Shown: positions 45,888 through 61,643 of the stretch, piece after piece | How positions within the stretch are numbered: the stretch's first letter is position 1 | Layout: the number at the start of each line of letters is the position of its first letter | DNA from: Pseudomonadota bacterium | GTDB lineage: Bacteria > Pseudomonadota > Gammaproteobacteria > UBA1113 | Direction of reading: 5' to 3' | DNA length: 64,000 nucleotides | NCBI GenBank assembly: GCA_021778015.1 | Contig: JAJYCX010000001.1 | Location: forward strand, 62,001-126,000 | Made by a program: the position numbers and the translations under genes | Notes under the pieces: generated by a model | The model's input: only the letters and a program-made list of their open reading frames with translations | Database searches by the model: none | Told to the model about the DNA's origin: nothing

Positions 45888-45888
45888 A
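45805..45888 (+). repeat. Left direct repeat of the island (antiporter 3' end)
   Basis: The last 84 bp of the antiporter gene including its stop codon. It matches 61735-61816 except for a few substitutions and a 2-bp deletion. Confidence 0.88.
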
Positions 45889-46086: not shown

Positions 46087-46761
46087 TTATTCCGATAAAT
46101 ATCTTGCAATATCTAAAAATGGGTCATAGATATTAGAAAAAATTCCTTGTTGTTGTAATTTTGAAAACAGCATGTGGAGCTCTGAACAAGCAATAATCAT
46201 GTTTTTATTTCTAAATTTTTGTAAAAAATCTGAAAACCTATTTACAACAAACACCTTGCTAACATTAAATTTTGCATCTTTAATAAGAGTGTCTAACAGA
46301 GCCTGATCGTTTTCATCAAGAAATATGGCATGTGATTTAATGTTAATCCATCTAGGATCTGATTCAAATAACTTTGAAATTCTAGACGCGAAAGAACATA
46401 AAACAATCGTTTCTTGTTGGGCTATATAATTTATAGCATAGTCTAAAATTGATATAATATGCTCTCTATATTTTTGAGAAATCTTTGGCAAAAAATGGTG
46501 CATTGCTAAACAGCAAATAACAATATTATCCACGGTAACGATGTCAAATATTTTAAGCTTTTCATTTATTGATTCTAAGAGCAAACTATCACATCCATTT
46601 AGTATAGCATTCGTTCTGTCTGGAATATCAGGATCTGATATCAAAAAAATTTTAGGCATTTTTTGTTCAGACTTTCCTGCCGCAGATTCATAAATTGAAT
46701 TAACAAACGCTGCGGATGCCAAAGGACCAGCACCACCAAGTACACCTATTCTTTTTATCAC
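46087..46761 (-). CDS. Aspartate/glutamate racemase-family protein (both cysteines kept)
   Basis: 224 residues. Asp/Glu racemase superfamily: GVLGGAGPLASAAFVNSIY at the start; the two catalytic cysteine positions are Cys84 (VICCLAMHHF) and Cys192 (IIACSELHML). The usual CNTAH is changed to CLAMH, so the substrate may be altered, but the cysteine pair needed for racemisation is intact. It is read from a promoter and leader closely similar to those of the large LeuA-like operon at 60.8 kb. The first gene after the island's left repeat. Confidence 0.78.
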   Translation of the reverse strand: MIKRIGVLGGAGPLASAAFVNSIYESAAGKSEQKMPKIFLISDPDIPDRTNAILNGCDSLLLESINEKLKIFDIVTVDNIVICCLAMHHFLPKISQKYREHIISILDYAINYIAQQETIVLCSFASRISKLFESDPRWINIKSHAIFLDENDQALLDTLIKDAKFNVSKVFVVNRFSDFLQKFRNKNMIIACSELHMLFSKLQQQGIFSNIYDPFLDIARYLSE

Positions 46762-47058
46762 TGCCTACTCTCCCTTATTTAAATACTACAGATTCGATAC
46801 AATCTACTTCATTACCTAATTGCCAATCTCACTTCTTATACTTAAATACATTATCAGTTCACTTTGCTTTTATTAAAAAGGTCCCTCTCAACACACACAT
46901 TTACTTGTAGGGTACTCCTCACTTTCATTATCCCCTAGCCATTTTTCTTCAGTAAAATGACAGATAGGACCTTGAGAATCAGCAGGCCCTACCAGCTAAG
47001 TACCACCGTTCGGCAGGAGTTTAGTTCTTTCATAATCAATTTGCTTTGTTCCTATTAA

Positions 47059-47170
47059 GAGGAAGAAATCCCTTCTCGCTGCACACATTATTGCTCTTAA
47101 AAGAAACAAAGTCTTTATAAAATATAGAATATCGCAAAGTAATATCGTTGTAAACTATATTTTCGATACT
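47059..47170 (-). repeat. Promoter-leader copy L1
   Basis: About 110 bp with clear similarity to 60906-61016. Shared blocks on the plus strand are GAGGAA, AATCCCT, CTTAAAAGAAACAAA, AGAATAT and TATTTT. It lies upstream of the racemase gene at 46761. Confidence 0.8.
47126..47154 (-). promoter_or_regulatory. Promoter of the racemase gene (L1)
   Basis: Minus strand -35 TTTACA (47149-47154), 17-bp spacer, -10 TATTCT (47126-47131). The same arrangement is found in L2. Confidence 0.6.
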
Positions 47171-47265
47171 TTTTATCATTTTATTTTAGAAAATGTCTAT
47201 TTTTTTTAAATAAAACTTCTTTTTCACCATGTCACAGGTAAAACTTTATGTTATGATAAGCCATC

Positions 47266-47916
47266 ATGTCAGACGATAAATTGAGCGAAATTTTAAAACG
47301 GATACTATTCCATAAGGATATGCGGATAAGTGATCTAGCCCGCGCTACAGGTATTCCTAAACCGACCGCCCATAGAATTGCTACTGGCAACTGTGCACGC
47401 CCACATATAGGATCCTTAATACCTATTGCAGAGTACTTCGGGATCTCTATTGAGCAATTAAGAGGCTTGGAACCTATTGAGTGGCTGAATAATTCAGAAC
47501 AATTAAAAAAACTGGGTGTAAATCAAGTCCCGCTTTTAGGTTGGCAAGATGCCAAAGAGAAAATGACTGACGAGACTATAGAGCTATATCGTAATGTTAA
47601 AAAAATATATACTGAAAGTCTTGTTAGCAATTTGGCTTTTGCTTTAGAGCTTCAAGACTCATCTATGGAACCTATATTCTCCATTAATAGTCTGGTTATT
47701 TTTGATCCGCAAAAAAATTATAGAGATCGCCACTATGTTTTGGTAAAATTACAGCAATATGATGAACCATTATTTAGACAGTTGATTATTGACGCCGAAG
47801 ACTTATTTATAAAACCATTACACCCTGATTTAGAGCATTTTAGAATGCACATGTTAGGAAAAAATGATATAATATTAGCTGTATTGGTAGAAGCAAGACA
47901 ACATTTTGCCACATAA
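47266..47916 (+). CDS. XRE/S24-type regulator of the island
   Basis: 216 residues. The N-terminal HTH is seen in MRISDLARATGIPKPTAHRIATGN; the C-terminal domain resembles S24 repressors with ELQDSSMEPIFSINSLVIF, where Ser stands at the nucleophile position. Unlike its paralogue at 43049 it could therefore retain self-cleavage, but the partner Lys is not certain. Start ATG at 47266 has no clear ribosome-binding site. It is divergent from the racemase and precedes an unknown gene by 13 bp. It is the likely regulator of the cluster. Confidence 0.8.
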   Translation: MSDDKLSEILKRILFHKDMRISDLARATGIPKPTAHRIATGNCARPHIGSLIPIAEYFGISIEQLRGLEPIEWLNNSEQLKKLGVNQVPLLGWQDAKEKMTDETIELYRNVKKIYTESLVSNLAFALELQDSSMEPIFSINSLVIFDPQKNYRDRHYVLVKLQQYDEPLFRQLIIDAEDLFIKPLHPDLEHFRMHMLGKNDIILAVLVEARQHFAT

Positions 47917-47929
47917 ATGGAGCTTAAAA

Positions 47930-48457
47930 ATGACCCAAAAATCATCATCCATAGCAGAATATATTTCATGGCTACTACAGCAATATAATGAAGCTAAAAA
48001 ACAAACTTCGCCACAAACCTTATATCGATTAGTGGAAATTAAAGAAAAAACAACTTATAATTATGAGCTCTCATTTCAATTAATTGGTAAATCTGCCATA
48101 TTTAAATCAACCCCTGAAAAAATTTTAACAAATGAAAAAATTATTGAGCATTTTTCCAGCAAAGACATTAGCATTATTACGCAGCTCGCATGTAAAAAAT
48201 TAAATCAGCCAAAAAATACGATCGTTGGTAAAAGTTTTTCTAGAACCCTGAATAAACTTCTTTTTAAAGTTAAAGATTTAGATAAAAAAATCATTAATGA
48301 ATGCCCCGCTTCCGAATTATCTATTAACAAAGAGTTAATTCAAAATATGGCCCCAGAAGATGCGCACATGATTGGATATGCAACAGCAATGGAAGTGTTC
48401 GAAAAAGAAAACAGCTCCATAAAAATCCTTCGTGAGAAAAACAATTCTTCGCAATAG
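47930..48457 (+). CDS. Hypothetical protein downstream of the regulator
   Basis: About 175 residues, hydrophilic, Lys-rich, no membrane segment. I do not recognise the family. Segments of note are ISWLLQQYNEAKKQ near the start, and ENAP-like MAPEDAHMIGYATAMEVFEKE near the end. ATG at 47930 is chosen because GGAG (47919-47922) precedes it by 7 bp. It follows the regulator by 13 bp and precedes the acyl-CoA-dehydrogenase-like gene by 44 bp, so it may be co-transcribed with both. It could be a partner of the regulator; that is guesswork. Confidence 0.6.
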   Translation: MTQKSSSIAEYISWLLQQYNEAKKQTSPQTLYRLVEIKEKTTYNYELSFQLIGKSAIFKSTPEKILTNEKIIEHFSSKDISIITQLACKKLNQPKNTIVGKSFSRTLNKLLFKVKDLDKKIINECPASELSINKELIQNMAPEDAHMIGYATAMEVFEKENSSIKILREKNNSSQ

Positions 48458-48501
48458 CTTATAGCTATTGTGCTTTTCAATAATTTTTGGAGGATAAATG
48501 T

Positions 48502-49599
48502 GTGGAAAATAAATATTTACTTGAAAGTTTCAAATCTTTTCTATTAAATGAAATCTACCCGTTAACAAGCGCTCTTGATACAAGTTTTGAACTAATGAAG
48601 GATCTCTTTGGTAAATGCAAAAAAGCCAATTATTTTCACCTGTATGTCCCAACTGAGTATAGCGGGATAATACTTACTGCAGAAGATAGAATAGATTTAT
48701 ATGAGAAAATTGGGCAATGGGGTGGAGCCTTTGGTTTTTTACAAACGCAAACGGTAATAGTTAGTTGGTTACTTCAACAAAGTGAAAATAATTATTTAAA
48801 AGAAAAATATTTCTTTGAGTTATTATCTAACAATCTTGTTGTTGGCAATAGTCTTTCTTGCATAAAACCAGGGATAAGAAATGGTATTAGTTCTATAAAA
48901 GAAAAGAATGGTTATCGTCTTTCTGGGAAAATAAACTTTGCTTCTGGATATAAATTTTTCGATGAGCTACTAATTGGATTTTATATTGATAATCAGATAG
49001 AAGCTTTTACTATTGTCCCATTTAGAAATTATATCCAAAATAATGGTGAAATAAAAATCGACTCGATCCTGGACGTTGCTGTCATGCAATCAATTAACAC
49101 GGTAAGTTTATCATTAGAGGATTTTTTTATTCATAATAAAGACATTATAATCAAATGGCCAAAGAACACATTGTATCAAAAATATAGCTCTTCTCCTTCA
49201 GCAACGATCATATTAGGTATCGCAATCTCAGCGCTTAATGCGGTAAAAGAATCTAGCACTTTTAATCATCGACAAAACATAGTTAATGGATATCACTTCC
49301 TTTTTGAAAAGGTGGAACTCTATCGTAATAAAGTACGGCAAACGAATAACGATCTTTCACTGAGTAAGCTATGTGCAGAAATTATTTATATTTCATGGAG
49401 GTGTGTGGAATTTTCCGTTTTAGCCGCAGGTGGGGCCGGGGTATTAATAGAAAGTAATGTGCAACGACTATATAGAGAAATTATTTTGTGGATACTACAA
49501 AAAACATATCCTGAAATTATTAATCATTGGCTAGAAATGCTCTACTCTGACATCGAAAGCATTGGAATCAGGCACGAGGAAAATTCAATAACCTACTAA
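48502..49599 (+). CDS. Acyl-CoA dehydrogenase-fold protein
   Basis: About 365 residues. It resembles acyl-CoA dehydrogenases and the related flavin monooxygenases (DszC type): an N-terminal helical domain with FHLYVPTEYSGIILT, a middle beta domain with NGYRLSGKINFASGYKFFDELLIG, and a C-terminal helical domain ending AAGGAGVLIESNVQRLYREI. A Glu as catalytic base is not obvious. The substrate is unknown; oxidation of a thioester or N-hydroxylation are both possible. GTG at 48502 is preferred: GGAGG lies 8 bp upstream, whereas the in-frame TTG at 48487 would overlap that site. Confidence 0.72.
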   Translation: MENKYLLESFKSFLLNEIYPLTSALDTSFELMKDLFGKCKKANYFHLYVPTEYSGIILTAEDRIDLYEKIGQWGGAFGFLQTQTVIVSWLLQQSENNYLKEKYFFELLSNNLVVGNSLSCIKPGIRNGISSIKEKNGYRLSGKINFASGYKFFDELLIGFYIDNQIEAFTIVPFRNYIQNNGEIKIDSILDVAVMQSINTVSLSLEDFFIHNKDIIIKWPKNTLYQKYSSSPSATIILGIAISALNAVKESSTFNHRQNIVNGYHFLFEKVELYRNKVRQTNNDLSLSKLCAEIIYISWRCVEFSVLAAGGAGVLIESNVQRLYREIILWILQKTYPEIINHWLEMLYSDIESIGIRHEENSITY

Positions 49600-49949
49600 C
49601 CTCAAAAACCTGTTCAAATAGTAACTGAAATTGACTTTTTTAAAGCGCCAGATCATTTATAATAAGATGTACCCCCACAATCTCCCCTATGCAGAGTTAG
49701 TCAACCGAGCATACAAGTCTATTGGTTAATAGCTATACTCCAGTTAGTCATTTTATAACTCCCTTCTTCTTGCCCTAAAAATAGACAGCAAAACTTTGGG
49801 CTAGTACAGCCTTTAAGAAATAATTGACATATATATAATACTCCTTTAAACTAGTCGTAAATAAAACTTAAATTATGAAAAAAACATTATAAAACGTGTA
49901 CATTAAGTTAGTTGGAAGGGTGGGATGATATTTAAACAAGGAGAACCAA
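49600..49949. other. Intergenic region before the second racemase
   Basis: About 350 AT-rich bp. Only a promoter for the downstream gene was recognised (49824-49852). No ORF or repeat is supported. Confidence 0.6.
49824..49852 (+). promoter_or_regulatory. Promoter of the second racemase-VUT pair
   Basis: -35 TTGACA (49824-49829), 17-bp spacer, -10 TAAACT (49847-49852). It lies about 100 bp upstream of the ATG at 49950. Confidence 0.5.
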
Positions 49950-50696
49950 ATGACCTATAAAATAGGTATTATTTGTATTACTACAGAAGGTTCGACTGTT
50001 TGTGAGAAAAGGATTAGCTTTTTAGGAGGCGTTAAAGGGGATTATCCAGCTTATTCTGTTGAGGCTATTCCTTTTAAAGAAACCTTCCCTGTTTTGTTTT
50101 CTAAAAATTGGCAACAACTAGCTAACCTTATAGTTGAGTCTATAAACAATCTTCCTAAAAATGTAGACTTTGTAATTATCCCCTCGAATACACCTCATTA
50201 TGCATATGATTTAATTCATGCACAGTCGCCGAAACCTGTGTTAGATTTAATAGAAATAACAGCAGAAGCATGCAAACAAGCTAATTATAAAAAAGTTGCC
50301 ATTTTAGGTACTAAACTAACAATGCGTGAAGGCTTATACGAGAAAAAAATCGCTGCACGCGACATAGAGCTTATTGTTCCCCCAGAAAATATTTGTGATA
50401 TAATTGATACTCTAATTAGGGAAGTTCTTGTACCGGGAAAACCTATATCTAAGGGAAGTGAAGGAGAAAAGCAATTTCAAGAAACGCTAGCATCAATTAA
50501 AGAGGCAATAAGCTGTGATGCATTTATTCTTGGTTGTACGGAGTTAACGCCTTTGGGGGAATATTTAACCTCAATAGATACAACGCTTTTGTTAGCACAA
50601 GTAGCTTATAATATAGCAATGAATGAAGATAACGCCTTACTATTATATTATGCCCATAAGCAAGAAAATATAAAAAAATCATTGACTTTCTATTAA
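49950..50696 (+). CDS. Aspartate/glutamate racemase-family protein (first Cys is Ser)
   Basis: 248 residues. Superfamily motifs are IPSNTPH (residues 78-84), AILGTKLTM and ILGCTELTPLGEYL. The first catalytic Cys is replaced by Ser79 while Cys196 is kept. E. coli YgeA (EcL-DER), with Thr in place of the first Cys, shows that one-Cys forms may still be active but more selective. A strong AAGGAG precedes the ATG. It differs strongly from the racemase at 46.1 kb, so the two are not recent duplicates. Followed by the VUT-family transporter by 28 bp. Confidence 0.8.
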   Translation: MTYKIGIICITTEGSTVCEKRISFLGGVKGDYPAYSVEAIPFKETFPVLFSKNWQQLANLIVESINNLPKNVDFVIIPSNTPHYAYDLIHAQSPKPVLDLIEITAEACKQANYKKVAILGTKLTMREGLYEKKIAARDIELIVPPENICDIIDTLIREVLVPGKPISKGSEGEKQFQETLASIKEAISCDAFILGCTELTPLGEYLTSIDTTLLLAQVAYNIAMNEDNALLLYYAHKQENIKKSLTFY

Positions 50697-50724
50697 TTCT
50701 AATCTTCTTTATTTAGGAGGCTAC

Positions 50725-51426
50725 ATGCAGTCTATTGATATACAAAACCCATCTTCTGTGCGATTAAAATATTTAACATTTCTTTCTGCTCTATATGTAA
50801 CAATTGTTCTATTAACTATGTTTGTTGAAAACAAGGTTATTATAATAGCATCTTTTCATGTGTCGACAGGGACACTGATTATTCCTCTGACTTATACTCT
50901 AAGTGATATAATTACAGAGGTATATGGATATAGGGAAATGCGGAAACTCATTTGGTGTTCGATCCTAATTCTTTATATGGTGGCAACGTTGTTTTTTTTA
51001 TTAATGCACCTCCCTGCACCTAAAAGCGAGATAAATGTTACCCAAGCCTATAATATAGTATTACAGCCTTTCTTTAGAGATACATTAGCCTATTCAATTG
51101 CTGCCGTAATGAGTGTTTTTTTAAATTCATATATATTAAGCAAATGGAAAATATTAGTTAGAGGCAAATTTTTTTGGCTAAGAAGTCTGGGCTCTTCTGC
51201 AGTAGGTGAATTTATCTTTATGATAGTATTTGGGTTTTTGGCTTTTTTCCAAGTATTTCCTTTTAATGAATTAAAAGAAATACTGTTTTTTTCTTTCTGC
51301 TACAAAATAATTTGTAATCTGATATCCATTTTTCCTGCAAGCGTTACAGTTTTATTTTTGAAAAAATCGGAAAAAATGGATGTTTATGATGTTGGTATAA
51401 ACTTCAACCCTTTTGAAGCGCAATAA
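50725..51426 (+). CDS. yhhQ: VUT-family membrane transporter (YhhQ-like)
   Basis: 233 residues, about six membrane helices. The family signature PLTYTLSDIITEVYGYREMRKLIW and RSLGSSAVGEFIF are clear. YhhQ imports queuosine precursors (preQ0/preQ1) in E. coli. Its position in a biosynthetic island next to an amino acid racemase is unusual, so here it may serve another heterocyclic or amino acid compound. AGGAGG lies before the ATG. Confidence 0.85.
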   Translation: MQSIDIQNPSSVRLKYLTFLSALYVTIVLLTMFVENKVIIIASFHVSTGTLIIPLTYTLSDIITEVYGYREMRKLIWCSILILYMVATLFFLLMHLPAPKSEINVTQAYNIVLQPFFRDTLAYSIAAVMSVFLNSYILSKWKILVRGKFFWLRSLGSSAVGEFIFMIVFGFLAFFQVFPFNELKEILFFSFCYKIICNLISIFPASVTVLFLKKSEKMDVYDVGINFNPFEAQ

Positions 51427-51513
51427 AAGTATGGCATCATTTTAACTCCAATGATTTCCAGGTCTCTATCGTGGCTGAAATAATGCCGAATCTCTCTTCA
51501 TTGTAGTTAATCG

Positions 51514-53493
51514 TTAAAGTGGAGTTCCCACCATATCTCCATTGCCTATGTGAGGACTTATTTTATTGTCAAAACTCAGCATCTCTGAACCTGCTTCAAA
51601 ATTTTTATACGGTAATATATTCTTACTAACATAGTCCGTTGGCAATAACGCATCTGATGCTATGGCATCGGCATCTGTAACAAAATCAGTCCAGAAACCA
51701 GGCCGACTACTTCCAGCTTGCATAAACCATCGTGTATGTTCTGTAGGAATTCCTAGCACATATAAATTACGGTTAGGTAATTTATATTGATCAATCGGAT
51801 GAAATGGTGTAGAAGATACGGACACGCCTCCAGTCATAAATTCTTCAGGGCCATTCTTATTGATAAATGGTATCCATATTCCTTTCTTTATCAAATTTTT
51901 TGTCAACAATGATTCGTCCATCATCATATTATGAAAAGGAATTCTTGCATCAATTACTACACTGATTCTTTTAGAAGAAGTATTTACTTGAGGTGAGGAT
52001 ATCATAAAACTATCAATATTGGCATCGGGCACTATATTAACTTTAGGCCCAATAATGTGTAATACACCTGATTTGATAAGTGCTATTATTTGTTGCACTC
52101 TAAATCTAGGTGGTCCAGCAGCAAGGAAAGAACTTTTAGGAGTATACCAATTTATAAAGTCCGTTTGATATGACTGCGATGTTAGGCCACCATAATCTAC
52201 TAGTTTGCGAATAATCGCGCGGCTATCACGTATCACATCTAGCGCGGCCTTAATAGGAGAATCAACATTTCCCATAAGAGAATCTTCCAAGTCATTGTTT
52301 AGTAATTGAATTAAATTTTCATGGAACTCATGTGGATTTGAAAAGCACTTTCCGTAAAACGGATCTGTAATTTTATTCAAGTCTAACTCTGGAATTTTAT
52401 GCATTTCATATTTAGACGAAAGTTCTACAATCTCTCTTGTGGTACTATAACCTAGATTTTTAACCTTGTTTCTAAACTCTTTTGCATAAAAATCACTATG
52501 GATATTCTTTATGATTGTTTCATAATATACAAGATTTATTTCAGCAAGCAATAGAGGCAGTACTTGCTCTTTAAAATTGACAGGTCCTTTTTTGCGTAGT
52601 TTATTTGCAATATCGTGAGTGAATATAACTGGGCAATACCGATAATTAGGATCTTTTTGGTTTTTTCCTCGTGCAAGAACAGGTACTCCTGAGCGAGAAC
52701 CTCCTATTAATATAGGTTCATAACCAGAAGAAATATAAGTTAACATATCATTACCGGCATCAATAAATTTACCCCCACGACCAATAGTTAATGCTGCTAT
52801 TACATCGTAAAAAGAAAGACCTAGTCCGATGATTCCAACTGATGAAGAGCTGGTTATATTCGATAAATCCATATCCGCAGCAGAATCACCACGTATATAC
52901 TGTAATGCAGGTTTCGTTGAGGCAAAATGAGATAACTTTTCTTGGTTATCATCCAGTTTATAAATAGAGTGTCCTGTTGTTAATATTACTTTATCTGCCG
53001 TTAATAGAGATTTATCGGATAACGTTAAAATAATTTCATTATTCTGTTGGTCTAAATCAATTACAGAGGCTTTTATTTTATTAAATACTACATTTTTTAA
53101 ATTCAAACTTGCTTCAATGGTACTTAGTACAAATTGCATATATTGGCCGTGTAATGCCCTAGGAGCATAACTATTAGGTCCCGGATAATTGGGATCCACA
53201 GATCGCCACCATTGTGCCAACGAGGGTCCTGCTCCTGGTCGTGCGGGGCTGTTATCAGGTTGACCAGAAAAAGAAGATACTTCATCTGCGACTGTATTCA
53301 TTAAAAACCAATCTGGTTGATCAGTACGCCAAATACGGCCGCAACCTAATTGAAATGCATCAACAAGAGAGATATGTATGTTTATATGGCTTTTCTCGGT
53401 AATAAGAACTGCTAACCGTTCTAGAATAGATAATCCTCTAGGTCCACTACCTACAATCACAATATGATGTAATTTATTTTTACGCGCTGTCAT
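51514..53493 (-). CDS. Large FAD/NAD(P)-binding protein (NAD_binding_9 type)
   Basis: 659 residues. The N-terminal dinucleotide motif VIVGSGPRGLSILERL is followed by GCGRIWRTDQPDWFLMNT, VILTTGHSIY and a second Rossmann-type GIIGLGLSFYDVIAALT. This is the FAD-NAD(P)-binding family found near secondary-metabolism genes; reaction unknown. Residues after 300 are less conserved, with a PPRFRVQQI segment and a C-terminal GIPTEHTRWFMQAGSSRPG. It is the last gene of the nine-gene operon, 6 bp after leuD. It might oxidise or hydroxylate the pathway product. Confidence 0.8.
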   Translation of the reverse strand: MTARKNKLHHIVIVGSGPRGLSILERLAVLITEKSHINIHISLVDAFQLGCGRIWRTDQPDWFLMNTVADEVSSFSGQPDNSPARPGAGPSLAQWWRSVDPNYPGPNSYAPRALHGQYMQFVLSTIEASLNLKNVVFNKIKASVIDLDQQNNEIILTLSDKSLLTADKVILTTGHSIYKLDDNQEKLSHFASTKPALQYIRGDSAADMDLSNITSSSSVGIIGLGLSFYDVIAALTIGRGGKFIDAGNDMLTYISSGYEPILIGGSRSGVPVLARGKNQKDPNYRYCPVIFTHDIANKLRKKGPVNFKEQVLPLLLAEINLVYYETIIKNIHSDFYAKEFRNKVKNLGYSTTREIVELSSKYEMHKIPELDLNKITDPFYGKCFSNPHEFHENLIQLLNNDLEDSLMGNVDSPIKAALDVIRDSRAIIRKLVDYGGLTSQSYQTDFINWYTPKSSFLAAGPPRFRVQQIIALIKSGVLHIIGPKVNIVPDANIDSFMISSPQVNTSSKRISVVIDARIPFHNMMMDESLLTKNLIKKGIWIPFINKNGPEEFMTGGVSVSSTPFHPIDQYKLPNRNLYVLGIPTEHTRWFMQAGSSRPGFWTDFVTDADAIASDALLPTDYVSKNILPYKNFEAGSEMLSFDNKISPHIGNGDMVGTPL

Positions 53494-53499
53494 GATATT

Positions 53500-54081
53500 T
53501 TATTTTTCACAAGTTTTAAAGTGTTTTTTTTCATACGCTATAATGTTATGAATATTTTCTAAAGTGCAATCAATCATATCCATAGCAGTTAACAACCGCT
53601 CTCTGATATGTTCATCTATAATAAATAAATGATTCAGATGTAATGCTTGTACTTTTTGCGTTAATAAATCTATGGTAACTTCTGTATTTGGAAATTGTTC
53701 AATTAGATCCCAAAGATTCTTAATAAAACTTAATGGGAGAATGATCGTCAATAACCCATTAGCCAAAGCATTATTATAAAATATATCACCATACCCAGAT
53801 GCTATGATAACTTTAAAACCATAGTTCTGTAGTGCCCATACTGCATATTCACGTGAAGAACCTATTCCAAAAGCGTCTCCCGCGATTAATATGCTGGCTT
53901 TCCCGTGTTCTTTTTTGTTCAAAACAAATTGTGGGTCTTCTCTCCAATGGGAAAAGAGAGCTTTTTCATGACCAAATTTACTGGATCCCACGCAGAATTT
54001 AGCTGGAATAATTTGATCCGTATCAACATTACTCAATTTAAGAGGGATGGCATATCCTCTGTGAATAGTAAATTTTTGCAT
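53500..54081 (-). CDS. leuD: Isopropylmalate isomerase small subunit-like (LeuD)
   Basis: 193 residues. The aconitase-superfamily swivel domain: PLKLSNVDTDQIIPAKFC, the serine loop FGIGSSREYAVWAL, and YNNALANGLL. With LeuC it isomerises 2-alkylmalates. It follows leuC by 17 bp. Its substrate may be different from isopropylmalate given the surrounding genes. Confidence 0.92.
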   Translation of the reverse strand: MQKFTIHRGYAIPLKLSNVDTDQIIPAKFCVGSSKFGHEKALFSHWREDPQFVLNKKEHGKASILIAGDAFGIGSSREYAVWALQNYGFKVIIASGYGDIFYNNALANGLLTIILPLSFIKNLWDLIEQFPNTEVTIDLLTQKVQALHLNHLFIIDEHIRERLLTAMDMIDCTLENIHNIIAYEKKHFKTCEK

Positions 54082-54098
54082 ATGGTTTCTCTTTTTAG

Positions 54099-55502
54099 TT
54101 AATCGATTAAATCAGCAGGAGAAGCTAGTCTTCCCATAATCGCCGTTGCAGCAGCTACGGGTGGAGAAACAATGTGTGTAAAAGAGCCTTTACCTTGTCT
54201 CCCCTGGAAACTTCTATTAGTAGTTGAAGCCGAACGATGATTTTCTTTTAGTTTGTCATCATTTAGACCTACACACATAGAGCATCCAGCTAAACTTCTA
54301 AAATCTGCTCCTGCTTCATAAAAGATTTTATCTAAGCCTTCTGCTATTGCCTGCTGTCTAACAGCAAATGATCCAGGAACAATAATCATGTCAACAGTTT
54401 TTGAAACCTTATGCCCCTTGAGAATTTCAGATACAATGCGTAAATCTTCTATTCTTCCATTAGTGCAAGATCCAACAAAAACAACATCAATAGGTATATC
54501 TCTCATTGCCGTACCTGGTTGTAATTTCATATAATCTAAGGACAGTTCCGCCTCTTTACGTAGTTCTTCTGTGGCAAAACTTTCTAAATTAGGAATACAT
54601 CCAGTCAGCGGAACACTTTGGCTAGGGTTAGTGCCCCAGGAAACATGGGAAGTTATTGTACTAGCATCTAGTATAACTTCTTTATCAAAAATAGCGTCTT
54701 TATCTGACTGTAAAGTTCTCCAATGTTCAACTTGTTCTTCAAAAATATATGGTTCAATATTCGCTGACTTTTTAAGATAAAGAAAAGTTGTTTCGTCAGG
54801 TGCAATAATGCTTGTATAAGCACCAAATTCAATTGACATGTTACACAAAGTCATTCTTGCTTCCATACTCATATTCATAATAGCTTCTCCACGATACTCA
54901 ACTATATAACCCTTCCCTCCAAAAACACCAATTTTTGAAATAATCGTAAGGGCTAAATCTTTTGCTGTTATACCATTTTGTAACTGATTATTAATTGTAA
55001 TTACCATTTTCTTAAACAAATGTAGTGCTAATGTTTGTGTTGCTAGAATATGCGCTACTTGCGTCGTTCCTATACCAAAAGCCAATGTACCAAATGCACC
55101 TTGCGTGCAAGTATGAGAGTCACAGCAAGCGATTGTCATGCCCGGACGAGTCAGGCCTAATTCTGGAGCGATCACATGCACAATACCTTGCCCAGGTTCT
55201 CCCAGCCTATATAATGGAATATTGAATTCTGCACAATTTTTTCTTAACATATTAATCTGATGCAAACCTACAGGATTATCAATAATTTTATCTATTGATT
55301 GAGTAGGAGTGTTGTGATCCTCAGTTCCTATTGTTAAATTAGGTTGTCTAACTTTTAAGTTTTTGTTACGTAAGATATCAAATGCTTGTGGCGTATTAAC
55401 TTCATGTAATAAATGAAGATCAATATAGATTAAATCTTCTTTAGAGTTTATATTAAATACTTTATGGTTATTCCATATTTTTTCAGCTATTGTAAAGCCC
55501 AT
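54099..55502 (-). CDS. leuC: Isopropylmalate isomerase large subunit-like (LeuC)
   Basis: 467 residues. The 4Fe-4S cluster cysteines are visible in VGSCTNGRIED and SLAGCSMCVGL; other landmarks are TEDHNTPT, CDSHTCTQGAFGTLAFGIGTTQV and FQGRQGKG. It catalyses stereospecific isomerisation of 2-alkylmalate to 3-alkylmalate. Homologues also act as homoaconitases, so the substrate depends on what the LeuA-like enzyme makes. 9 bp separate it from the MFS gene. Confidence 0.93.
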   Translation of the reverse strand: MGFTIAEKIWNNHKVFNINSKEDLIYIDLHLLHEVNTPQAFDILRNKNLKVRQPNLTIGTEDHNTPTQSIDKIIDNPVGLHQINMLRKNCAEFNIPLYRLGEPGQGIVHVIAPELGLTRPGMTIACCDSHTCTQGAFGTLAFGIGTTQVAHILATQTLALHLFKKMVITINNQLQNGITAKDLALTIISKIGVFGGKGYIVEYRGEAIMNMSMEARMTLCNMSIEFGAYTSIIAPDETTFLYLKKSANIEPYIFEEQVEHWRTLQSDKDAIFDKEVILDASTITSHVSWGTNPSQSVPLTGCIPNLESFATEELRKEAELSLDYMKLQPGTAMRDIPIDVVFVGSCTNGRIEDLRIVSEILKGHKVSKTVDMIIVPGSFAVRQQAIAEGLDKIFYEAGADFRSLAGCSMCVGLNDDKLKENHRSASTTNRSFQGRQGKGSFTHIVSPPVAAATAIMGRLASPADLID

Positions 55503-55511
55503 ATTATCTCC

Positions 55512-56768
55512 TTAATCTAGTACCTTTTTAGGATCTATGATCTCTACTTTACGAGACGCTGGGTATACTTTTCCAGGAGACAAAGGAACAGCTAATAAAG
55601 AACACAGCGCTACAGCTCCCCAGACAGAAGACCAAGATGATCCAATTAGTAAAAAAGGAATGAGAAAAGGGGTAATAAACGCAGTGGTAAAAATAGTTGT
55701 TCCTTCCATCCCTAGTGCAGTACCGGCTCGAGAAGCTCCTGACATAGAAGCAATCTCCGTATAGGCAATCCCATGCCACGCATTAGCAAATAAACCACAT
55801 AAACAAATAAGAATCGTTATCAATGTGGCTGATCTGTCGGATAGTAACATTATGCTTATTCCCAATAACCCTGCAACACTACCTATAATTTTAATCATTT
55901 TTCGACGATTGCCATATTTATCAGTATAGCGACCACTCCATATACGTAGAACTGCACCACCTATCTGCATGATCATAATGGTGATAGATATTGCAGCTAA
56001 ACTAACCTGCTTCGCATCATGCAAAAAGATAGCACCAAAAGTTAATACTGCAATTTGAGGAACGGTTAATAATCCACTGGCCAACGCCAACCGCCACACA
56101 TCCCAACGAACCAGTGGTGAAGGTAGCATCTCTATTGTGCTAGCACTAATAGAAGATTTTTTAGTTTCTGCTGTATGTATCCAGCGCCAAGTAGCTAAAG
56201 CACTTGCCATACAAAAAAATGCTAAGACCCCATAAACTGCTCTAAAACCAAAATTAGCTGCTAGCCAAGGCAATAACACAGCACCAATCGCCCCCCCAGC
56301 TGGGATCGCTGTTTGACGAATACTCATAGCAAATCCTCGTTGCTTGTCTGTAAACCAGGTCATCACAGCCCGTCCGGAAGATGAATTAACGCTGCCCGAT
56401 AAAAAACCCACAAGGGTTAAGCTAATACCAAGTTGTAAAACTGTAGGAATGAATTGCTTCGTGGGAGCCACAAAAAAACTCATCCATGCTAACATAAGTC
56501 CTGTTGAGAGCAATCCCGTTAATAGAATTCGTCGATCGCCAAATCGATCTGTCAATAGTCCCCATAAAATCTCGGAAACAGCAACTCCTAACGCCATACA
56601 CCCCAATACTAGACCTAATTGGCTGGTTGTAAAATGATAATCCGTACGCATAAGCACACCTGTAATAGGTATTCCTGAAAAAGCAACAGAAAAACTTGCC
56701 TGAGCAGCAACCCCTATACCCAATACTGTCCAACGATAGTTTGGTTTAAAACTGTTCTTTGATGTCAT
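55512..56768 (-). CDS. MFS transporter
   Basis: About 418 residues, 12 membrane helices. The MFS loop motif is present as GLLTDRFGDRRILL between TM2 and TM3, and a second copy as GRYTDKYGNRRKMI. Substrate unknown; being inside the operon it is probably the exporter of the product or importer of the precursor. ATG at 56768 overlaps the cupin stop (ATGA), which fixes the start. Confidence 0.88.
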   Translation of the reverse strand: MTSKNSFKPNYRWTVLGIGVAAQASFSVAFSGIPITGVLMRTDYHFTTSQLGLVLGCMALGVAVSEILWGLLTDRFGDRRILLTGLLSTGLMLAWMSFFVAPTKQFIPTVLQLGISLTLVGFLSGSVNSSSGRAVMTWFTDKQRGFAMSIRQTAIPAGGAIGAVLLPWLAANFGFRAVYGVLAFFCMASALATWRWIHTAETKKSSISASTIEMLPSPLVRWDVWRLALASGLLTVPQIAVLTFGAIFLHDAKQVSLAAISITIMIMQIGGAVLRIWSGRYTDKYGNRRKMIKIIGSVAGLLGISIMLLSDRSATLITILICLCGLFANAWHGIAYTEIASMSGASRAGTALGMEGTTIFTTAFITPFLIPFLLIGSSWSSVWGAVALCSLLAVPLSPGKVYPASRKVEIIDPKKVLD

Positions 56769-57172
56769 AATTCTATCTCCGTTAATTGAACTACTTCTAC
56801 TGGTTTTTCCCAGATAACTAATGCCAGGCAACCTTTCTCACTGCGAGGAGCATGTCTGGTATTTGGCTCCATAAGAATAATGCTATTTTTTAAAAATACG
56901 CCTTCAGCTGTTTTCAATTCTCCTTCAAGAATATAGATAATCTCATAGCCGAGATGATTATGAAGAGCTGCAGTTGCACCAGGTAAATAACGAACGATAG
57001 CCGCTGCAGGTCCTCCACAGCCTGTCTCTATCGTAGAATATAGGCTGTGAATTTCAGCACCAATCCGACCATGTTTGTTTAATGGAACAAGATTTATTTC
57101 TTCTTTTGCCATCGATTCTTGTGGTTTAAAAACAAATAATTTTGGTAAATTCTTAGGATCAAGTAAATTCAT
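56765..57172 (-). CDS. Cupin (ChrR-like) protein
   Basis: 135 residues. Single cupin domain: PGATAALHNHLGYEIIYILEGEL with the His/His/Glu metal ligands, and MEPNTRHAPRSEKGC with the last His. Similar to ChrR-type cupins, which may bind Zn or Fe and act in oxidation, isomerisation or stress sensing. It overlaps the MFS gene by 4 bp. Its role in the pathway is unknown. Confidence 0.82.
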   Translation of the reverse strand: MNLLDPKNLPKLFVFKPQESMAKEEINLVPLNKHGRIGAEIHSLYSTIETGCGGPAAAIVRYLPGATAALHNHLGYEIIYILEGELKTAEGVFLKNSIILMEPNTRHAPRSEKGCLALVIWEKPVEVVQLTEIEL

Positions 57173-57197
57173 ATTGTCTCCTGGTTAATATAAATGA

Positions 57198-58202
57198 TTA
57201 ATCACCTACGCAGCCATGAATTTTATTAACCCATTCGTTGGCATAATAGTCAGCAGTTTTTTCGTCTCGAAAAGAATACGTTTTTAATAGCCATCGCATA
57301 TATACACTTTGCGGGTCATTAACTTCTATTTTTTCACGATTATGCAGTCCATCTTGGTTTGCAAAAGCCAATAAGTCTCCATTTATGATTTTGTGTCGGA
57401 TCTTATTTACTTTGACCACGGCATTTTTTATAGAAATAAGTGCATCTTTTGCCTGTACAGGACTATCTATTGCCACACAAGTAACAGCATCTAGATAACG
57501 AAAGCTGTGCTGATGTTCCAAGATAGGGTGATTTTCTGAAAGATCTAGTCGACTATTGGCTTCTTTAGAAAACACATCAAAAGGAGTAATGAAATATGGT
57601 TGTCTCAATATGAATTGATTCTCTATACTCAAATGTGTCAGTAGATCTCTCCCATCTATAAATCCGGTGTAAATGAGATTGTCGGATGGACAACGTAGAC
57701 CAAGTAAAGAAATAAAGTCAGCACGCACCCGATGGGCAGTTCTATCATTATGGTAGAAAAGTTCACTATCACTAAAACCAGTTTGCATACCACTATACTT
57801 TTCAATTGCAACTACATCCGTAAAAAAATCTCCATTATTACGAGTCGCATAAGATAATAAAGGGGTTCCAGTCAATTTTGCAAATAAAGCAAGGAAACCC
57901 TCTCCAATGAAAGTTTTTTTCTTCTCATGTTTGTCAAAGATTGGATTTTTTGAATTGAGATCAGGAATAATTTTATCAACAGGGCAATTACGCAACAAAT
58001 GGATCTTAGCCTTACCACTCTCTCTTTCTAGGCGAATTGTTGTGCAAATCTCTCTTAATAAATCTAAGCTATTATCATTGCTCAACTCATCTATGGTCAA
58101 TGAAAATTTTTCATATTCATGAAAAGGATTTTCCTTTATTGATTGTAAAGCATCAAAAATAAGGTTTCTATCAGAATCTTCAAAAATATAATACGGTTTC
58201 AT
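57198..58202 (-). CDS. Fe(II)/2-oxoglutarate dioxygenase, clavaminate synthase-like
   Basis: 334 residues of the TauD/clavaminate synthase superfamily. The HxD pair is His151/Asp153 (LFYHNDRTAH), the distal His is 287 (DGLHNRE) and Arg303 (YMRWLLKTYSF) could bind 2-oxoglutarate. Relatives hydroxylate free amino acids such as arginine, lysine or asparagine. It overlaps the GST gene by 4 bp. It is the most likely C-H hydroxylase of the pathway. Confidence 0.8.
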   Translation of the reverse strand: MKPYYIFEDSDRNLIFDALQSIKENPFHEYEKFSLTIDELSNDNSLDLLREICTTIRLERESGKAKIHLLRNCPVDKIIPDLNSKNPIFDKHEKKKTFIGEGFLALFAKLTGTPLLSYATRNNGDFFTDVVAIEKYSGMQTGFSDSELFYHNDRTAHRVRADFISLLGLRCPSDNLIYTGFIDGRDLLTHLSIENQFILRQPYFITPFDVFSKEANSRLDLSENHPILEHQHSFRYLDAVTCVAIDSPVQAKDALISIKNAVVKVNKIRHKIINGDLLAFANQDGLHNREKIEVNDPQSVYMRWLLKTYSFRDEKTADYYANEWVNKIHGCVGD

Positions 58203-58987
58203 TTTTTGTTTTCTCTTATAAAATCTCTCTGCGGGCCAAACTGTGGAGCCATTTTTGCTTCATGCGCAGCGGAGTTTACCGGCGATGAAAAATAGCTTAT
58301 TGGGTTAGTAGAAATGCTAGGAAGCGAATAACTCATTTTCTCTGAGCTTTCTGATTGTATAGAGGAGCCCATAATGCATTCTTGATAGGCTGGTCTTTGA
58401 CAAAGGTCCTGATACCAACGGCTCAAATTACCCATAATAGGCAAAAGATTTGAAGGTAAATTAAACCAACGATACGCCCAGATACCTAAAGGAATATCCG
58501 CAATAGAGAAATCATTTCCTGCCAAATAAGAAGAGGACTCTAGGTATCTATCTACTATTTCCCATAAACGTATAGTTTCTGCTAAATGTTTTTCTATAAT
58601 ACTGGCATTTTGCTGAGCTAAAGGCGTACGAGTTAACTGCAGAAATAATGGTCCCATAGTTGGGCTCATAGCACTTAATTGCCAGTCCATCCATTGATTG
58701 GCATAGGCTCTATTCTTCAATGAAAAAGGCGCAAGCGTTGAATCATGCCCATATTGCTCTACTAAATAGCGTAAAATACTGTTGGACTCCCATAATGTGA
58801 ATTCCCCATCTTGTAGCGTAGGAACTAAACCATTCGGATTTAGTTTAAGATAGTCTTTTTCTTTGTTCCCACCAAAACCACCTCCTAAATCAATACGCTC
58901 AAAATTTAATTTAAGCTCTTTACAACACCAAAGTACTTTTTGTACATTAGATGAGTCTGATCTTCCCCATATAATTAATTTTGACAT
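58199..58987 (-). CDS. Glutathione S-transferase-like protein
   Basis: 262 residues. N-terminal thioredoxin-like domain (SDSSNVQKVLWCCKEL, NPNGLVPTLQDG, LWESNSILRYLVEQ) and C-terminal helical domain with GNDFSIADIPLGIW. A C-terminal extension of about 55 residues, Ser-rich, is unusual. Homologues isomerise or conjugate small molecules with glutathione. Overlaps both neighbours (13 and 4 bp). ATG at 58987 with GGAG upstream. Confidence 0.87.
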   Translation of the reverse strand: MSKLIIWGRSDSSNVQKVLWCCKELKLNFERIDLGGGFGGNKEKDYLKLNPNGLVPTLQDGEFTLWESNSILRYLVEQYGHDSTLAPFSLKNRAYANQWMDWQLSAMSPTMGPLFLQLTRTPLAQQNASIIEKHLAETIRLWEIVDRYLESSSYLAGNDFSIADIPLGIWAYRWFNLPSNLLPIMGNLSRWYQDLCQRPAYQECIMGSSIQSESSEKMSYSLPSISTNPISYFSSPVNSAAHEAKMAPQFGPQRDFIRENKK

Positions 58988-59583
58988 AATACTCCAATTT
59001 CTTCTCTAAAAAAATTTTCTACAGTATTAACTTTAGCAATGCGTTCTAATATTTTAATAGCAGATATATGCAGATCTTCATGAGATGAAGCTGTAGCATC
59101 TTCTAGCACAACCACCTGATAATCTTTATCATGTGCTTGCATAGCAGTAGACAAGATAACAAACTCTGTTGACACCCCAGTTAAAAGCACAGTTTGAATA
59201 TCATTATTTTTTAATAACAACTCCAAATTTGTTTGGTAAAATGAATTGATGCGATTTTTTACAATAATTTTTTCATGCGGCTTAGGCTCAATGCTTGAAT
59301 GGATCTGCGTCCCCCAAGTTCCCAGGATAATTCGTTTCTCTGTTTTGGCGCTCCTAAAAACAGGGGAATTTTTAGGCCACTCGACATAATTTTCAGAAAA
59401 TCCAACAATAACATATATGACCAACATCTCTAACCGCCTAGCATGTTCAATCGCTTTTTTTGCATTATGAATTACATCTCGACAAGTTACTTGATCAAAA
59501 TAACCTTCAGAAGAATATTTACCACTTGGATGAACAATTTCATTTATAAGATCAAGAACTAAAAGGGCTGTTTTATTTTTCAT
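58975..59583 (-). CDS. Isochorismatase-fold hydrolase with Cys replaced
   Basis: About 202 residues. Cysteine-hydrolase/isochorismatase fold: LLVLDLINE with Asp11, VKNRINSF with Lys109, and GVSTEFVILSTAMQA. In amidase-type members the Cys stands in GVxTxxCV; here the position is Val142. Asp and Lys are kept. True isochorismatases (EntB, PhzD) also lack the Cys, so it could be an ether or enol-pyruvyl hydrolase rather than an amidase. ATG at 59583 lies inside the LeuA-like gene end (11-bp overlap); the upstream TTG is less likely. Confidence 0.8.
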   Translation of the reverse strand: MKNKTALLVLDLINEIVHPSGKYSSEGYFDQVTCRDVIHNAKKAIEHARRLEMLVIYVIVGFSENYVEWPKNSPVFRSAKTEKRIILGTWGTQIHSSIEPKPHEKIIVKNRINSFYQTNLELLLKNNDIQTVLLTGVSTEFVILSTAMQAHDKDYQVVVLEDATASSHEDLHISAIKILERIAKVNTVENFFREEIGVLCQN

Positions 59584-60796
59584 ATCCACTGTTATCCAAA
59601 GCAATGTTATTGTTCATAGACATACAAGTAAATTGTATATACTTTTCCATGTCAATATCATCTATTTCTTGATATTGAGCATCCTGGTTTTTTATAGAAC
59701 ATTGATAGAATTCTTCCAATTTAGCTTCTGTTATTGGGTAATTATTCTTTTTGCATAGATAGCGAAATATAGCTTTTCCTGAGTGACGTGTTAAAAATAG
59801 GCCTCGCTTACGACCAAATATAGCGGGATCAACAAATTCATACGTTTCTGGGTTTTGCAATATACCATGTTGATGAATACCAGAACCTGTAGAAAAAGCA
59901 TATTTGCCAAAAATTGCTTTATTTATAGGTTTTTCTAACCCCATCATTCCACATAAAGAAAGATATGTAGAATACATTTTTGCTAGACAAATATTGCTTC
60001 GCATATTTAACTCTTTTTCTTTATAGAAAATTAAGGCCGCAGTTTCTTCTAAAGCAGTATTTCCTGCACGTTCACCGATTCCCCCTAATGTCACTTGAAC
60101 CTCATCTGCACCGGCTTGTAATCCGGCAATGGAATTAGCTAATGCAAAACCAAGGTCATCATGGCAATGAGTAGAAATTTTAATTGGATGAGGCGCCCAT
60201 GTTCGAACCTTACGAATTAACTTTGCATATTGGTCTGGTATTGAATAACCAACTGTGTCTGCTATAACAAAATTGCTCGCCCCAGCATGAATTGCCTTAT
60301 TTATAAGACATTGGAGAAACTGTTCATCTGATCGGCTTGCATCTTCAATGCCAACAGAAATTGAATCAATCCCATTTGAGATAGCAAAGTCTATTGACTC
60401 CACCACCTCTTGAATAGCTTGTTCTCTGCTAATGCGGCGTTTATATTCCAAATGTAAATCACTTCCCGTAGCTAAAATTTGAATTCCATGGTTTTTATTT
60501 GTTCCCCCTGCTTTTATAGCAGTTTCAATATCACTTTTTAATGCTCTGCAGAAAGATACATATTTAGCAGAGGTTAAATGTGAAGCAATTAACTCTGTCG
60601 ACTTAAAGTCTGCATCTGATGAAGCAGGAAACCCAGTTTCAATATAGTCAATACCTAGAGATTCTAATTCTAAAGCAAGTTGTAATTTCTGAGATGGGTT
60701 TAGGGCATTACCAATGGCTTGCTCCCCATCACGCAAAGTTGTGTCAAAAATTGTAATTAAACGACCCGAAGTTAAATCAAATTTTTTGCTTTGCAT
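59573..60796 (-). CDS. LeuA-like alkylmalate/homocitrate synthase
   Basis: 407 residues. DRE-TIM aldol condensing enzyme: FDTTLRDGEQAIGNALNP, IETGFPASSD, STHCHDDLGFALANS and GGIGERAGNTALEE. It condenses acetyl-CoA with a 2-oxo acid. The C-terminal allosteric LeuA domain is missing (about 500 residues in full LeuA), as in homocitrate or citramalate-type enzymes of this size, so leucine feedback is not expected. The 2-oxo acid used is unknown. First gene of the nine-gene operon, behind promoter L2 and a conserved leader of about 180 nt. Confidence 0.85.
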   Translation of the reverse strand: MQSKKFDLTSGRLITIFDTTLRDGEQAIGNALNPSQKLQLALELESLGIDYIETGFPASSDADFKSTELIASHLTSAKYVSFCRALKSDIETAIKAGGTNKNHGIQILATGSDLHLEYKRRISREQAIQEVVESIDFAISNGIDSISVGIEDASRSDEQFLQCLINKAIHAGASNFVIADTVGYSIPDQYAKLIRKVRTWAPHPIKISTHCHDDLGFALANSIAGLQAGADEVQVTLGGIGERAGNTALEETAALIFYKEKELNMRSNICLAKMYSTYLSLCGMMGLEKPINKAIFGKYAFSTGSGIHQHGILQNPETYEFVDPAIFGRKRGLFLTRHSGKAIFRYLCKKNNYPITEAKLEEFYQCSIKNQDAQYQEIDDIDMEKYIQFTCMSMNNNIALDNSGYEK

Positions 60797-60905
60797 ATAT
60801 CTTACCCCATATTTTACTCAATTAGTGTGCCAAAACCTCATATCAGTTCCTTCGTTTGGTTGATCTGATGTTCTATTCGTCAAGTTCATTCTCTTTGGGG
60901 CCCAT

Positions 60906-61016
60906 GAGGAAATGAATCCCTCTCTGCTATACGTATTATCGCCCTTAAAAGAAACAAACACTGTATAGAACAAAGAATATAGAGAAAAAATCCCTTTGTT
61001 AACATATTTTGATTCT
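60906..61016 (-). repeat. Promoter-leader copy L2
   Basis: About 110 bp similar to L1 (47059-47170), same orientation relative to the gene it precedes. It includes the promoter and the first transcribed part. Confidence 0.8.
60974..61002 (-). promoter_or_regulatory. Promoter of the nine-gene LeuA-like operon (L2)
   Basis: Minus strand -35 TTAACA (60997-61002), 17-bp spacer, -10 TATTCT (60974-60979). Same spacing and -10 as in L1. Confidence 0.62.
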
Positions 61017-61110: not shown

Positions 61111-61572
61111 TTAGTTACACGCACTAAAAAAATAAGAAAACTCACTGTAATTGACGTGGATTCTACTGGATATGGTATAAACATATAAAGTCCCTTCTTT
61201 ATAGCCCGTTATTGCTAAATCTAAAACGCCTTCTTCATAGAAAGTTTGCTGCAAAGGACTATCTAATCGTAACAAACCGCTACTTTTCTTCTTTAAAAAA
61301 AGACTGGGTTGTAATCGATTATAGGCCTTTGATACATTTCTATTTGAATCATGCACGCGCATGATTTCATCCATTAGAAACAATATTTGCTCTTTCAATA
61401 CAGTATTAGTATAGGTACAAGTTTCATGCTGAGAAGTTACACACAATAAACCTGCTGGGTTTAGCATCAGTTCGCGTGCCTCAGAATCGGTAAAATAGGT
61501 CATTAAAGTAGGGTATCTTTTGCAAGAGCTGAGGTAAAATTGCTCACTATTTAACAATGATAAACATTCCAT
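61111..61572 (-). CDS. Hypothetical protein at the right end of the island
   Basis: About 153 residues. I do not recognise the family. Cys-rich in its first half (five Cys by residue 62 in segments such as LYLSSCKRYP-like and CVTSQHETCTY). No signal peptide or membrane helix. ATG at 61572 has AAGGAG 6 bp upstream, and a promoter TTGACT-17-TAATTT lies ahead, so it is likely expressed by itself. It stands between the LeuA operon promoter and the island's right repeat. Whether it belongs to the pathway is unknown. Confidence 0.6.
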   Translation of the reverse strand: MECLSLLNSEQFYLSSCKRYPTLMTYFTDSEARELMLNPAGLLCVTSQHETCTYTNTVLKEQILFLMDEIMRVHDSNRNVSKAYNRLQPSLFLKKKSSGLLRLDSPLQQTFYEEGVLDLAITGYKEGTLYVYTISSRIHVNYSEFSYFFSACN

Positions 61573-61643
61573 AGCTAGCTCCTTGTAATAAAAATAGACC
61601 AACGCTCACAGAGATTTAAGAACCTAAACCCCTTATAAATGAG

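Follow-up and report, generated by a model that had tools for sequence, protein, structure and literature searches.

An apparently horizontally acquired LeuACD operon without LeuB, carrying a flavoenzyme of the amino-acid N-hydroxylase family, recurs across bacterial phyla

What does a bacterium make with the leucine enzymes LeuA, LeuC and LeuD when LeuB does not accompany them? The question is raised by an operon in a stretch of 64,000 nucleotides (the window; positions 62,001 to 126,000 of contig JAJYCX010000001.1, assembly GCA_021778015.1) from a gammaproteobacterium of the GTDB lineage UBA1113. An earlier note, made from the sequence alone, had described nine genes here and proposed an undescribed small-molecule pathway. 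All nine were found where it had placed them, on the minus strand, and adjacent genes overlap or are separated by at most 25 bases (Table 1). The cluster is real, conserved and apparently undescribed, and its enzymes all come from known families. Our preferred reading, held with a confidence just short of even, is that the operon arrived by horizontal transfer and directs the synthesis of a small N-oxygenated antimetabolite via a 3-substituted aspartate. No title or abstract among the literature matches listed (in some searches the best 20 of 103, 25 of 428 and 20 of 40) describes the gene set, in agreement with the note, which knew of no pathway with exactly this composition.

The simplest answer would be leucine. 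The LeuB of Escherichia coli had no tblastn match in the window or in the DNA searched of 60 related loci (L008-L067), and E. coli LeuA, LeuC and LeuD gave 29, 32 and 29 matches to open reading frames (ORFs) in the same DNA. In the host's own genome, which is 83.61% complete, LeuB was not found, the sole Iso_dh protein found being an NADP-isocitrate dehydrogenase; the only other HMGL protein found was HMG-CoA lyase, and the only other aconitase-family protein was aconitase. The note had called for a look at leuB and a standard leuACD elsewhere in the genome, and these three proteins are what it yielded. Absence from an assembly of this completeness is suggestive, not final. The window LeuA also lacks the allosteric domain, as the note had held, and scores above no NCBIfam cut-off, in contrast to LeuC and LeuD. 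The available text of PMC12961565 lists in its Table 1 the substrate-selecting positions of HphA/LeuA-type enzymes. Placed on LeuA by motif, the last position being a guess, they read F-S-G-V-A in the window enzyme and L-E-S-N-P in isopropylmalate synthase (IPMS). The pattern F, S/A/T, G, V/I/A is shared by the window LeuA and 24 of the 29 aligned LeuA proteins from the related loci, and is unlike those given in that text for IPMS, homocitrate synthase (HCS) and HphA; the LeuA proteins of L020 and L025 have the IPMS pattern, and those of L027, L032 and L033 a third one.

An ordinary leucine operon was rejected on these three grounds, namely the missing LeuB, the non-IPMS pocket and the missing regulatory domain, and, within the limits of the incomplete genome, the sequences support the view that leucine synthesis in this cell does not run through the operon. 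Capture of leucine biosynthesis or another primary pathway on the island would agree with LeuC and LeuD passing their NCBIfam cut-offs; it is already contradicted by the absence of LeuB, by a LeuA below all cut-offs with its non-IPMS pocket, and by the syntenic oxygenase, N-oxygenase and exporter, which together make it very improbable indeed. The note had also expected a chain-elongated, hydroxylated or D-configured acid. No decarboxylating LeuB step turned up anywhere, which makes a classical chain-elongated 2-oxo acid less likely.

The gene set is not confined to the window, as the note's wording might have suggested, and the search in other genomes that it recommended showed this directly. 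In plasmids, tblastn found oxygenase homologs with 57% identity in Streptomyces, 42% in Staphylococcus epidermidis and 36% in Vibrio; three further plasmid matches (H4, H5 and H6, below 28% identity) were not counted as relatives. The Staphylococcus plasmid carries, in order, genes for LeuA, isochorismatase, oxygenase, cupin, MFS transporter, LeuC, LeuD, FAD protein, an aminotransferase and glyceraldehyde-3-phosphate dehydrogenase (GAPDH). Scanning genome contigs with an FAD-protein profile yielded 56 loci, and two plasmids brought the loci with this enzyme to 58; the 56 were found by two short patterns derived from three LeuA-type flavoenzymes and are a biased sample of the family, and their flanks extend to at most 10 kb, with some stopping at contig ends. 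The eight window genes other than the glutathione S-transferase (GST) gene occur together in 12 of the 58 loci, and 7 of these 12 (L009, L034, L035, L039, L044, L055 and L067) keep the window gene order, followed by an aminotransferase gene. The hosts include the S. epidermidis plasmid, Xenorhabdus, Moritella, Bacillota, Streptomyces and Kitasatospora; viral contigs yielded no relative, and the window has no firm position in the oxygenase tree. Since the set recurs in such distant bacteria, the operon, which appears to have been acquired horizontally with its island, probably makes an undescribed small bioactive molecule.

The related loci fall into two mutually exclusive types. LeuA was present in 26 of the 58 flavoenzyme loci and MutE or MutS in 24; 8 had neither in the DNA searched and none had both (L011 was excluded from these counts). 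Oxygenase genes accompany all 26 LeuA-type loci and none of the 24 MutE-type loci (Fisher 8e-15), and aminotransferase genes 25/26 and 1/24 (Fisher 8e-12), both values being descriptive only, as the loci are related. Isochorismatase genes are distributed likewise (23/26 versus 1/24), cupin genes are found in 18/26 and 22/24, and an MFS homolog is present in 14 of the 26 LeuA-type loci. The exceptional MutE-type locus, L018, encodes LeuC and LeuD as well; it probably represents a LeuA-type cluster next to a MutE-like fragment. Pfam confirmed representatives of the MutE and B12-binding families. The other MutE-type loci (L026, L030, L036, L037, L042, L045-L052, L054, L056-L062, L064 and L066) combine MutE and/or the B12-binding MutS with a CreE-like flavoenzyme, mostly a Cupin_7 protein, and often an acyl-AMP ligase and a vanadium-haloperoxidase-like protein. 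They form a second cluster type, no description of which was met.

Glutamate mutase delivers 3-methylaspartate, whose amino group is already attached. The LeuA set and the aminotransferase, which appear in exchange for the mutase, thus look like a substitute supply: the LeuA route would yield a nitrogen-free 3-substituted malate that needs oxidation and transamination, and both routes would then feed a 3-substituted aspartate to the same N-oxygenase. In the flavoenzyme tree (midpoint root, with 8cp2 on a long branch), the MutE-type loci L026, L030, L036 and L037 branch next to the LeuA-type clade (supports 98/88, 91/89 and 90/90), which weakly suggests that the LeuA route replaced the mutase. 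Two of the 26 LeuA-type loci have a LeuA of the IPMS kind: Photobacterium L020 encodes it with a fused LeuD-LeuC and a valine-pyruvate transaminase, without LeuB, and Vibrio L025 has the same families, again without LeuB. An ordinary leucine operon was rejected for the LeuA and LeuC of these two loci on the grounds of the fusion and the missing LeuB.

Both types share the flavoenzyme family. The note's "FAD protein" stands and can be sharpened to a member of the CreE/FzmM family of amino-acid N-hydroxylases: a three-row profile matched PDB 8cp2 with an E value of 3e-114 over nearly the full length, and the available text of PMC10404684 identifies 8cp2 as the L-aspartate N-hydroxylase of Streptomyces sp. 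V2. Aligned to it, the window enzyme retains Trp51, Asn62 and Arg13, 266, 276, 409, 412, 416 and 577, and has Ala in place of Asn413 and Ser in place of Arg593; the same text assigns the cofactor residues, the arginine cluster and a role of Asn413 in aspartate recognition. Because the catalytic residues are kept and Asn413 is replaced, the reaction type has likely been kept and the substrate changed. All nine non-actinobacterial LeuA-type enzymes form one clade with the window enzyme (100/99). Asn413 is present in 1 of 27 LeuA-type enzymes, the window included, and in 14 of 23 aligned MutE-type enzymes (L042 was not aligned). Position 413 was rejected as a clean chemotype marker, since 9 of the 23 aligned MutE-type enzymes vary there too. 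A tie between Trp413 and aromatic precursor genes is a lead only, for Trp413 is found in L022, L028, L029, L031, L040, L041 and L065, yet also in L016 and L024.

Membership in the CreE/FzmM family and the retained arginine cluster would also fit a flavoenzyme that turns aspartate itself into nitrosuccinate as a nitrite donor, with LeuACD making an unrelated half of the molecule. We consider this improbable, as Asn413 is replaced in 26 of the 27 LeuA-type enzymes, no CreD lyase family was found by Pfam among the 16 island ORFs of at least 100 aa, and LeuA co-occurs strictly with the oxygenase and aminotransferase but not with MutE.

The oxygenase is homologous to the VioC/AsnO/clavaminate-synthase group, and its predicted fold, with a His-X-Asp/Glu...His motif and an Arg, places it in that group as well. 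Comparison of the predicted fold with the 1000 chains ranked highest by Foldseek put it nearest to hydroxylases of free amino acids. This bears on a more conventional homologation, in which a 2-oxo acid (phenylpyruvate, for example) is extended by LeuA and LeuCD, oxidative decarboxylation falls to a host LeuB or isocitrate dehydrogenase, an aminotransferase gives a homo-amino acid, and the oxygenase and flavoenzyme decorate the latter. Besides the oxygenase, the aminotransferases of the LeuA-type loci (one annotated as aromatic) would agree with it, as would the prephenate dehydratase family in L022, L040 and L041 (representative L022 above the cut-off) and the DAHP-synthase-like family in L022, L028, L029, L031 and L065 (representative L028 below it), which would suit phenylpyruvate in those loci. 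On the other side, LeuB is missing from the 60 loci and from the own, incomplete genome although LeuA, LeuC and LeuD are all in the cluster, and the LeuA pocket residues differ from those listed for HphA (PMC12961565, in the text available). Homologation is on balance a doubtful alternative, and less probable than not.

On the comparative logic of these loci, we infer every chemical step of the preferred 3-substituted aspartate pathway, their order, the group R, the substrate, the product and the target as follows. LeuA would condense a 2-oxo acid, R-CO-COOH, with acetyl-CoA to a 2-substituted malate, and LeuCD would shift the hydroxyl to give a 3-substituted malate whose second carboxyl is retained, with no LeuB to remove it. 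This malate would be oxidized by an enzyme not assigned to any cluster gene and transaminated to a 3-substituted aspartate, by the cluster aminotransferase in the relatives and by a host enzyme in the window organism: the window island has no aminotransferase gene, and its own genome encodes two aminotransferase homologs, 40% identical, to the actinobacterial type only. The VioC-type oxygenase would hydroxylate or desaturate the free amino acid (oxidation of the malate being less likely), the CreE-type flavoenzyme would oxidize the amino nitrogen, giving a hydroxylamine, oxime or nitro group, the final steps would fall to the cupin and the isochorismatase-fold hydrolase, and the MFS protein would export the molecule. 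The product or a reactive intermediate would probably harm GAPDH.

Alternatively, an unsaturated or hydroxylated acid formed by LeuACD could already be the end product, a course proposed for pantaphos in the available text of PMC7858074, while the nitrogen enzymes act elsewhere. That proposed precedent for LeuACD without LeuB is in its favor, and maleate-type electrophiles would suit both a GAPDH target and the GST. We nevertheless think it decidedly improbable, given the aminotransferase in 25 of the 26 LeuA-type loci and the absence of a PEP mutase family from the 16 island ORFs; the scan itself was made with the N-oxygenase.

A possible target is suggested by GAPDH, a gene for which lies near the flavoenzyme in 9 of the 30 loci looked at (29 and L009): seven within the fetched loci (L009, L014, L019, L021, L024, L044 and L055), and two, in L015 and L065, added by a genome search within 10-11 kb of the flavoenzyme. 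About 0.22 GAPDH genes would be expected by chance in 28 loci, assuming 2.5 copies per 7.5 Mb. Counting flanks alone, which is how far the MutE-type loci were searched, GAPDH occurs in 6 of 26 LeuA-type and 0 of 24 MutE-type loci (Fisher p 0.02). Other copies were found in 8 of the 9 genomes, L009 having been searched in its plasmid only. A tree that excluded four distant GAPDH rows rejected a single clade of the nine cluster GAPDHs (AU p 2.9e-5; 1.4e-4 without the Staphylococcus one). Given this rejection of a single origin, we read GAPDH as repeatedly recruited, as expected of a self-resistance gene, and this hints that the product harms GAPDH; an extra GAPDH in the cluster may instead have a biosynthetic role.

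The starred branches of the GAPDH tree, taken by themselves, can be reconciled with a single origin, and the tree contains long branches. The oxygenase as a replacement for LeuB was downgraded after the fold comparison, which slightly lowered confidence in the preferred pathway and in the broader possibility given below and slightly raised it for homologation.

The island carries no GAPDH, and none was found in the host's own, incomplete assembly, nor was phosphoglycerate kinase (PGK); the controls gave 14/14 for each. GAPDH is present in 7 of 11 genomes of the family, the host's included in the count, and it is missing from two of five congeners and from one further family member. The incomplete assembly could explain the missing GAPDH and PGK.

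This raises a broader possibility, on which we place rather less weight than on the pathway itself: a widely traded family of clusters would make N-oxygenated 3-substituted aspartates (nitro, oxime or hydroxylamino) from LeuACD alkylmalates, one N-oxygenase being served by exchangeable suppliers (MutS/MutE or at least three kinds of LeuA). At least part of the products would be GAPDH inhibitors paired with a self-resistant GAPDH, and the window host, appearing without GAPDH and PGK, may need no resistance gene. If this is so, the cluster found in Staphylococcus, Xenorhabdus, Moritella, Bacillota and Streptomyces itself offers a clue to its target (GAPDH). It would also show the leucine enzymes at work without LeuB, take the CreE family past aspartate, and account for a repeatedly encountered gene group whose LeuC and LeuD are labeled leucine biosynthesis in annotation files.

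The operon lies on an island (45,889-61,738) flanked on both sides by copies of the end of a kef-like gene, whose stop is at 45887. The repeat consists of pieces of 47 and 31 bases, 96% and 94% alike, and its 35-base core occurs twice in the window versus a mean of 0 in 100 shuffles. GC content is 0.347 inside the island versus 0.423 to its left; to the right it is 0.363 to the window end, 0.381 just beyond, and 0.42 only some kilobases further. Since the right flank is low in GC at first, the right edge cannot be drawn from GC alone. Duplication of a gene end is common in islands, and we read this one as an element that probably entered at the gene end carrying its own copy of that end, although Pfam found no integrase among its 16 ORFs and no unoccupied site came to light. 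None of the 10 other genomes of the host's family carries the oxygenase gene, and a class sample of 369 genomes has it in the host's own only, with four others giving distant matches of 23-30% identity.

The note had counted two racemases, an acyl-CoA-dehydrogenase-like enzyme and a YhhQ-like transporter as part of the pathway. They do lie on the same island, but membership in the pathway did not hold up: neither they nor the S24-type regulator and the 183-aa protein have a homolog in the 60 related loci. An 89-base repeat, 64/89 identical (72%) versus 41-44/89 in 8 shuffles, stands before leuA and before the regulator gene and is a candidate operator. A second HTH/S24-type regulator is encoded just outside the island (43034-43762). 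The window has no Rfam match and no tRNA.

Table 1. Features of the island and its borders in the window
Feature	Position	Strand	Basis and remarks
Left repeat copy, 3' end of kef-like K+/H+ antiporter gene (gene 43908-45887)	45810..45888	+	Repeat search
Asp/Glu racemase-like protein (McyF-like)	46087..46761	-	Pfam cut-off passed, no NCBIfam one; PDB McyF E 5e-24
89-base repeat copy 1, candidate shared regulatory region	47067..47155	.	Between first racemase and regulator
HTH/S24 peptidase-type regulator	47266..47916	+	Pfam; 33% identical to regulator at 43034-43762
183-aa protein, no family match	47906..48457	+	Pfam, NCBIfam, PADLOC
Acyl-CoA-dehydrogenase-like protein	48487..49599	+	Pfam N-terminal domain only; weak PDB match
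Asp/Glu racemase	49950..50696	+	TIGR00035 99.3 bits vs cut-off 93.1; PDB matches
YhhQ-like queuosine-precursor transporter	50725..51426	+	TIGR00697 above cut-off
FAD protein, amino-acid N-hydroxylase family (CreE/FzmM; PDB 8cp2)	51514..53493	-	Pfam NAD_binding_9; three-row profile vs PDB
LeuD, isomerase small subunit	53500..54081	-	Above NCBIfam cut-off
LeuC, isomerase large subunit	54099..55502	-	Above NCBIfam cut-off
MFS transporter, presumed exporter	55512..56768	-	Pfam MFS_1; start at 56768 likely
Cupin_7 protein	56765..57172	-	Pfam
Fe(II)/2-oxoglutarate oxygenase, VioC/AsnO/clavaminate-synthase group	57198..58202	-	NCBIfam and PDB matches, none in Pfam
GST	58199..58987	-	Pfam; no homolog in 60 related loci, only in window cluster
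Isochorismatase-fold cysteine hydrolase	58975..59604	-	Pfam; nearest solved structure RutB ureidoacrylate amidohydrolase
LeuA-like alkylmalate synthase	59573..60796	-	407 aa; Pfam HMGL-like and HCS_D2 only; no C-terminal regulatory domain; non-IPMS pocket
89-base repeat copy 2	60915..61003	.	119-207 bases before leuA
Open frame, 163 aa, no family match	61111..61602	-	Pfam, NCBIfam, PADLOC
Right copy of kef gene 3' end	61739..61816	+	Repeat search

Several related clusters have further neighbors. Aspartate kinase, aspartate-semialdehyde dehydrogenase and a second TauD-type oxygenase are encoded beside L008, L011 and L018. Pyruvate dehydrogenase E1 alpha and/or beta families (alpha representative above the cut-off, beta below) lie near Streptomyces, Kitasatospora and Pseudonocardia clusters (L014, L015, L017, L019, L021 and L023), where acetyl-CoA supply and another resistance gene are candidate readings. 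On a Vibrio halioticoli plasmid (L010), an oxygenase homolog and LeuC/LeuD stand beside adenylation-condensation (NRPS) and ATP-grasp proteins; with no FAD enzyme in the DNA searched, this locus is outside the 58 and represents another cluster using LeuCD.

Compared with known systems, the cluster is closest in its flavoenzyme to CreE/FzmM (8cp2, the aspartate-nitrosuccinate system), with which it shares homology over nearly the whole enzyme and the cofactor and arginine-cluster residues; it differs in the replaced Asn413, in the tie to LeuACD, oxygenase and aminotransferase, and in having no CreD/FzmL-type lyase on the island, and a nitrite-donor pathway was rejected on the lyase and Asn413. 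The 24 MutS/MutE loci, mostly from Streptomyces, have the same flavoenzyme family and usually a Cupin_7-type partner (22/24), but glutamate mutase replaces LeuACD, oxygenase and aminotransferase, and an acyl-AMP ligase is often present. The homophenylalanine pathway (HphA/HphCD/HphB) likewise uses LeuA-like and LeuCD-like enzymes and an aminotransferase; it was rejected here, as its LeuB-like dehydrogenase HphB was not found and the HphA pocket residues, as given in the source available, are not shared. The pantaphos hvr cluster resembles ours in its LeuA-like and LeuCD-like enzymes without a named LeuB step, its flavin enzyme and its MFS exporter, and differs in PEP mutase, phosphonate chemistry and a flavin enzyme described as NtaA/ScmK-like, according to the available text of PMC7858074; a phosphonate pathway was rejected for lack of a PEP mutase family among the 16 island ORFs. 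The IOC/cystargolide beta-lactones (ioc/leu) draw on 3-isopropylmalate, which LeuA and LeuCD form ahead of the LeuB step, yet require an ANL ligase, and their leuABCD is a leucine operon, in the part of PMC9177418 available; no ANL ligase/AMP-binding domain was found among the same ORFs, and a beta-lactone pathway was rejected. Finally, pentalenolactone is made by a terpene pathway, and its producer cluster also contains a GAPDH gene, for self-resistance, as the available text of PMC8510958 describes.

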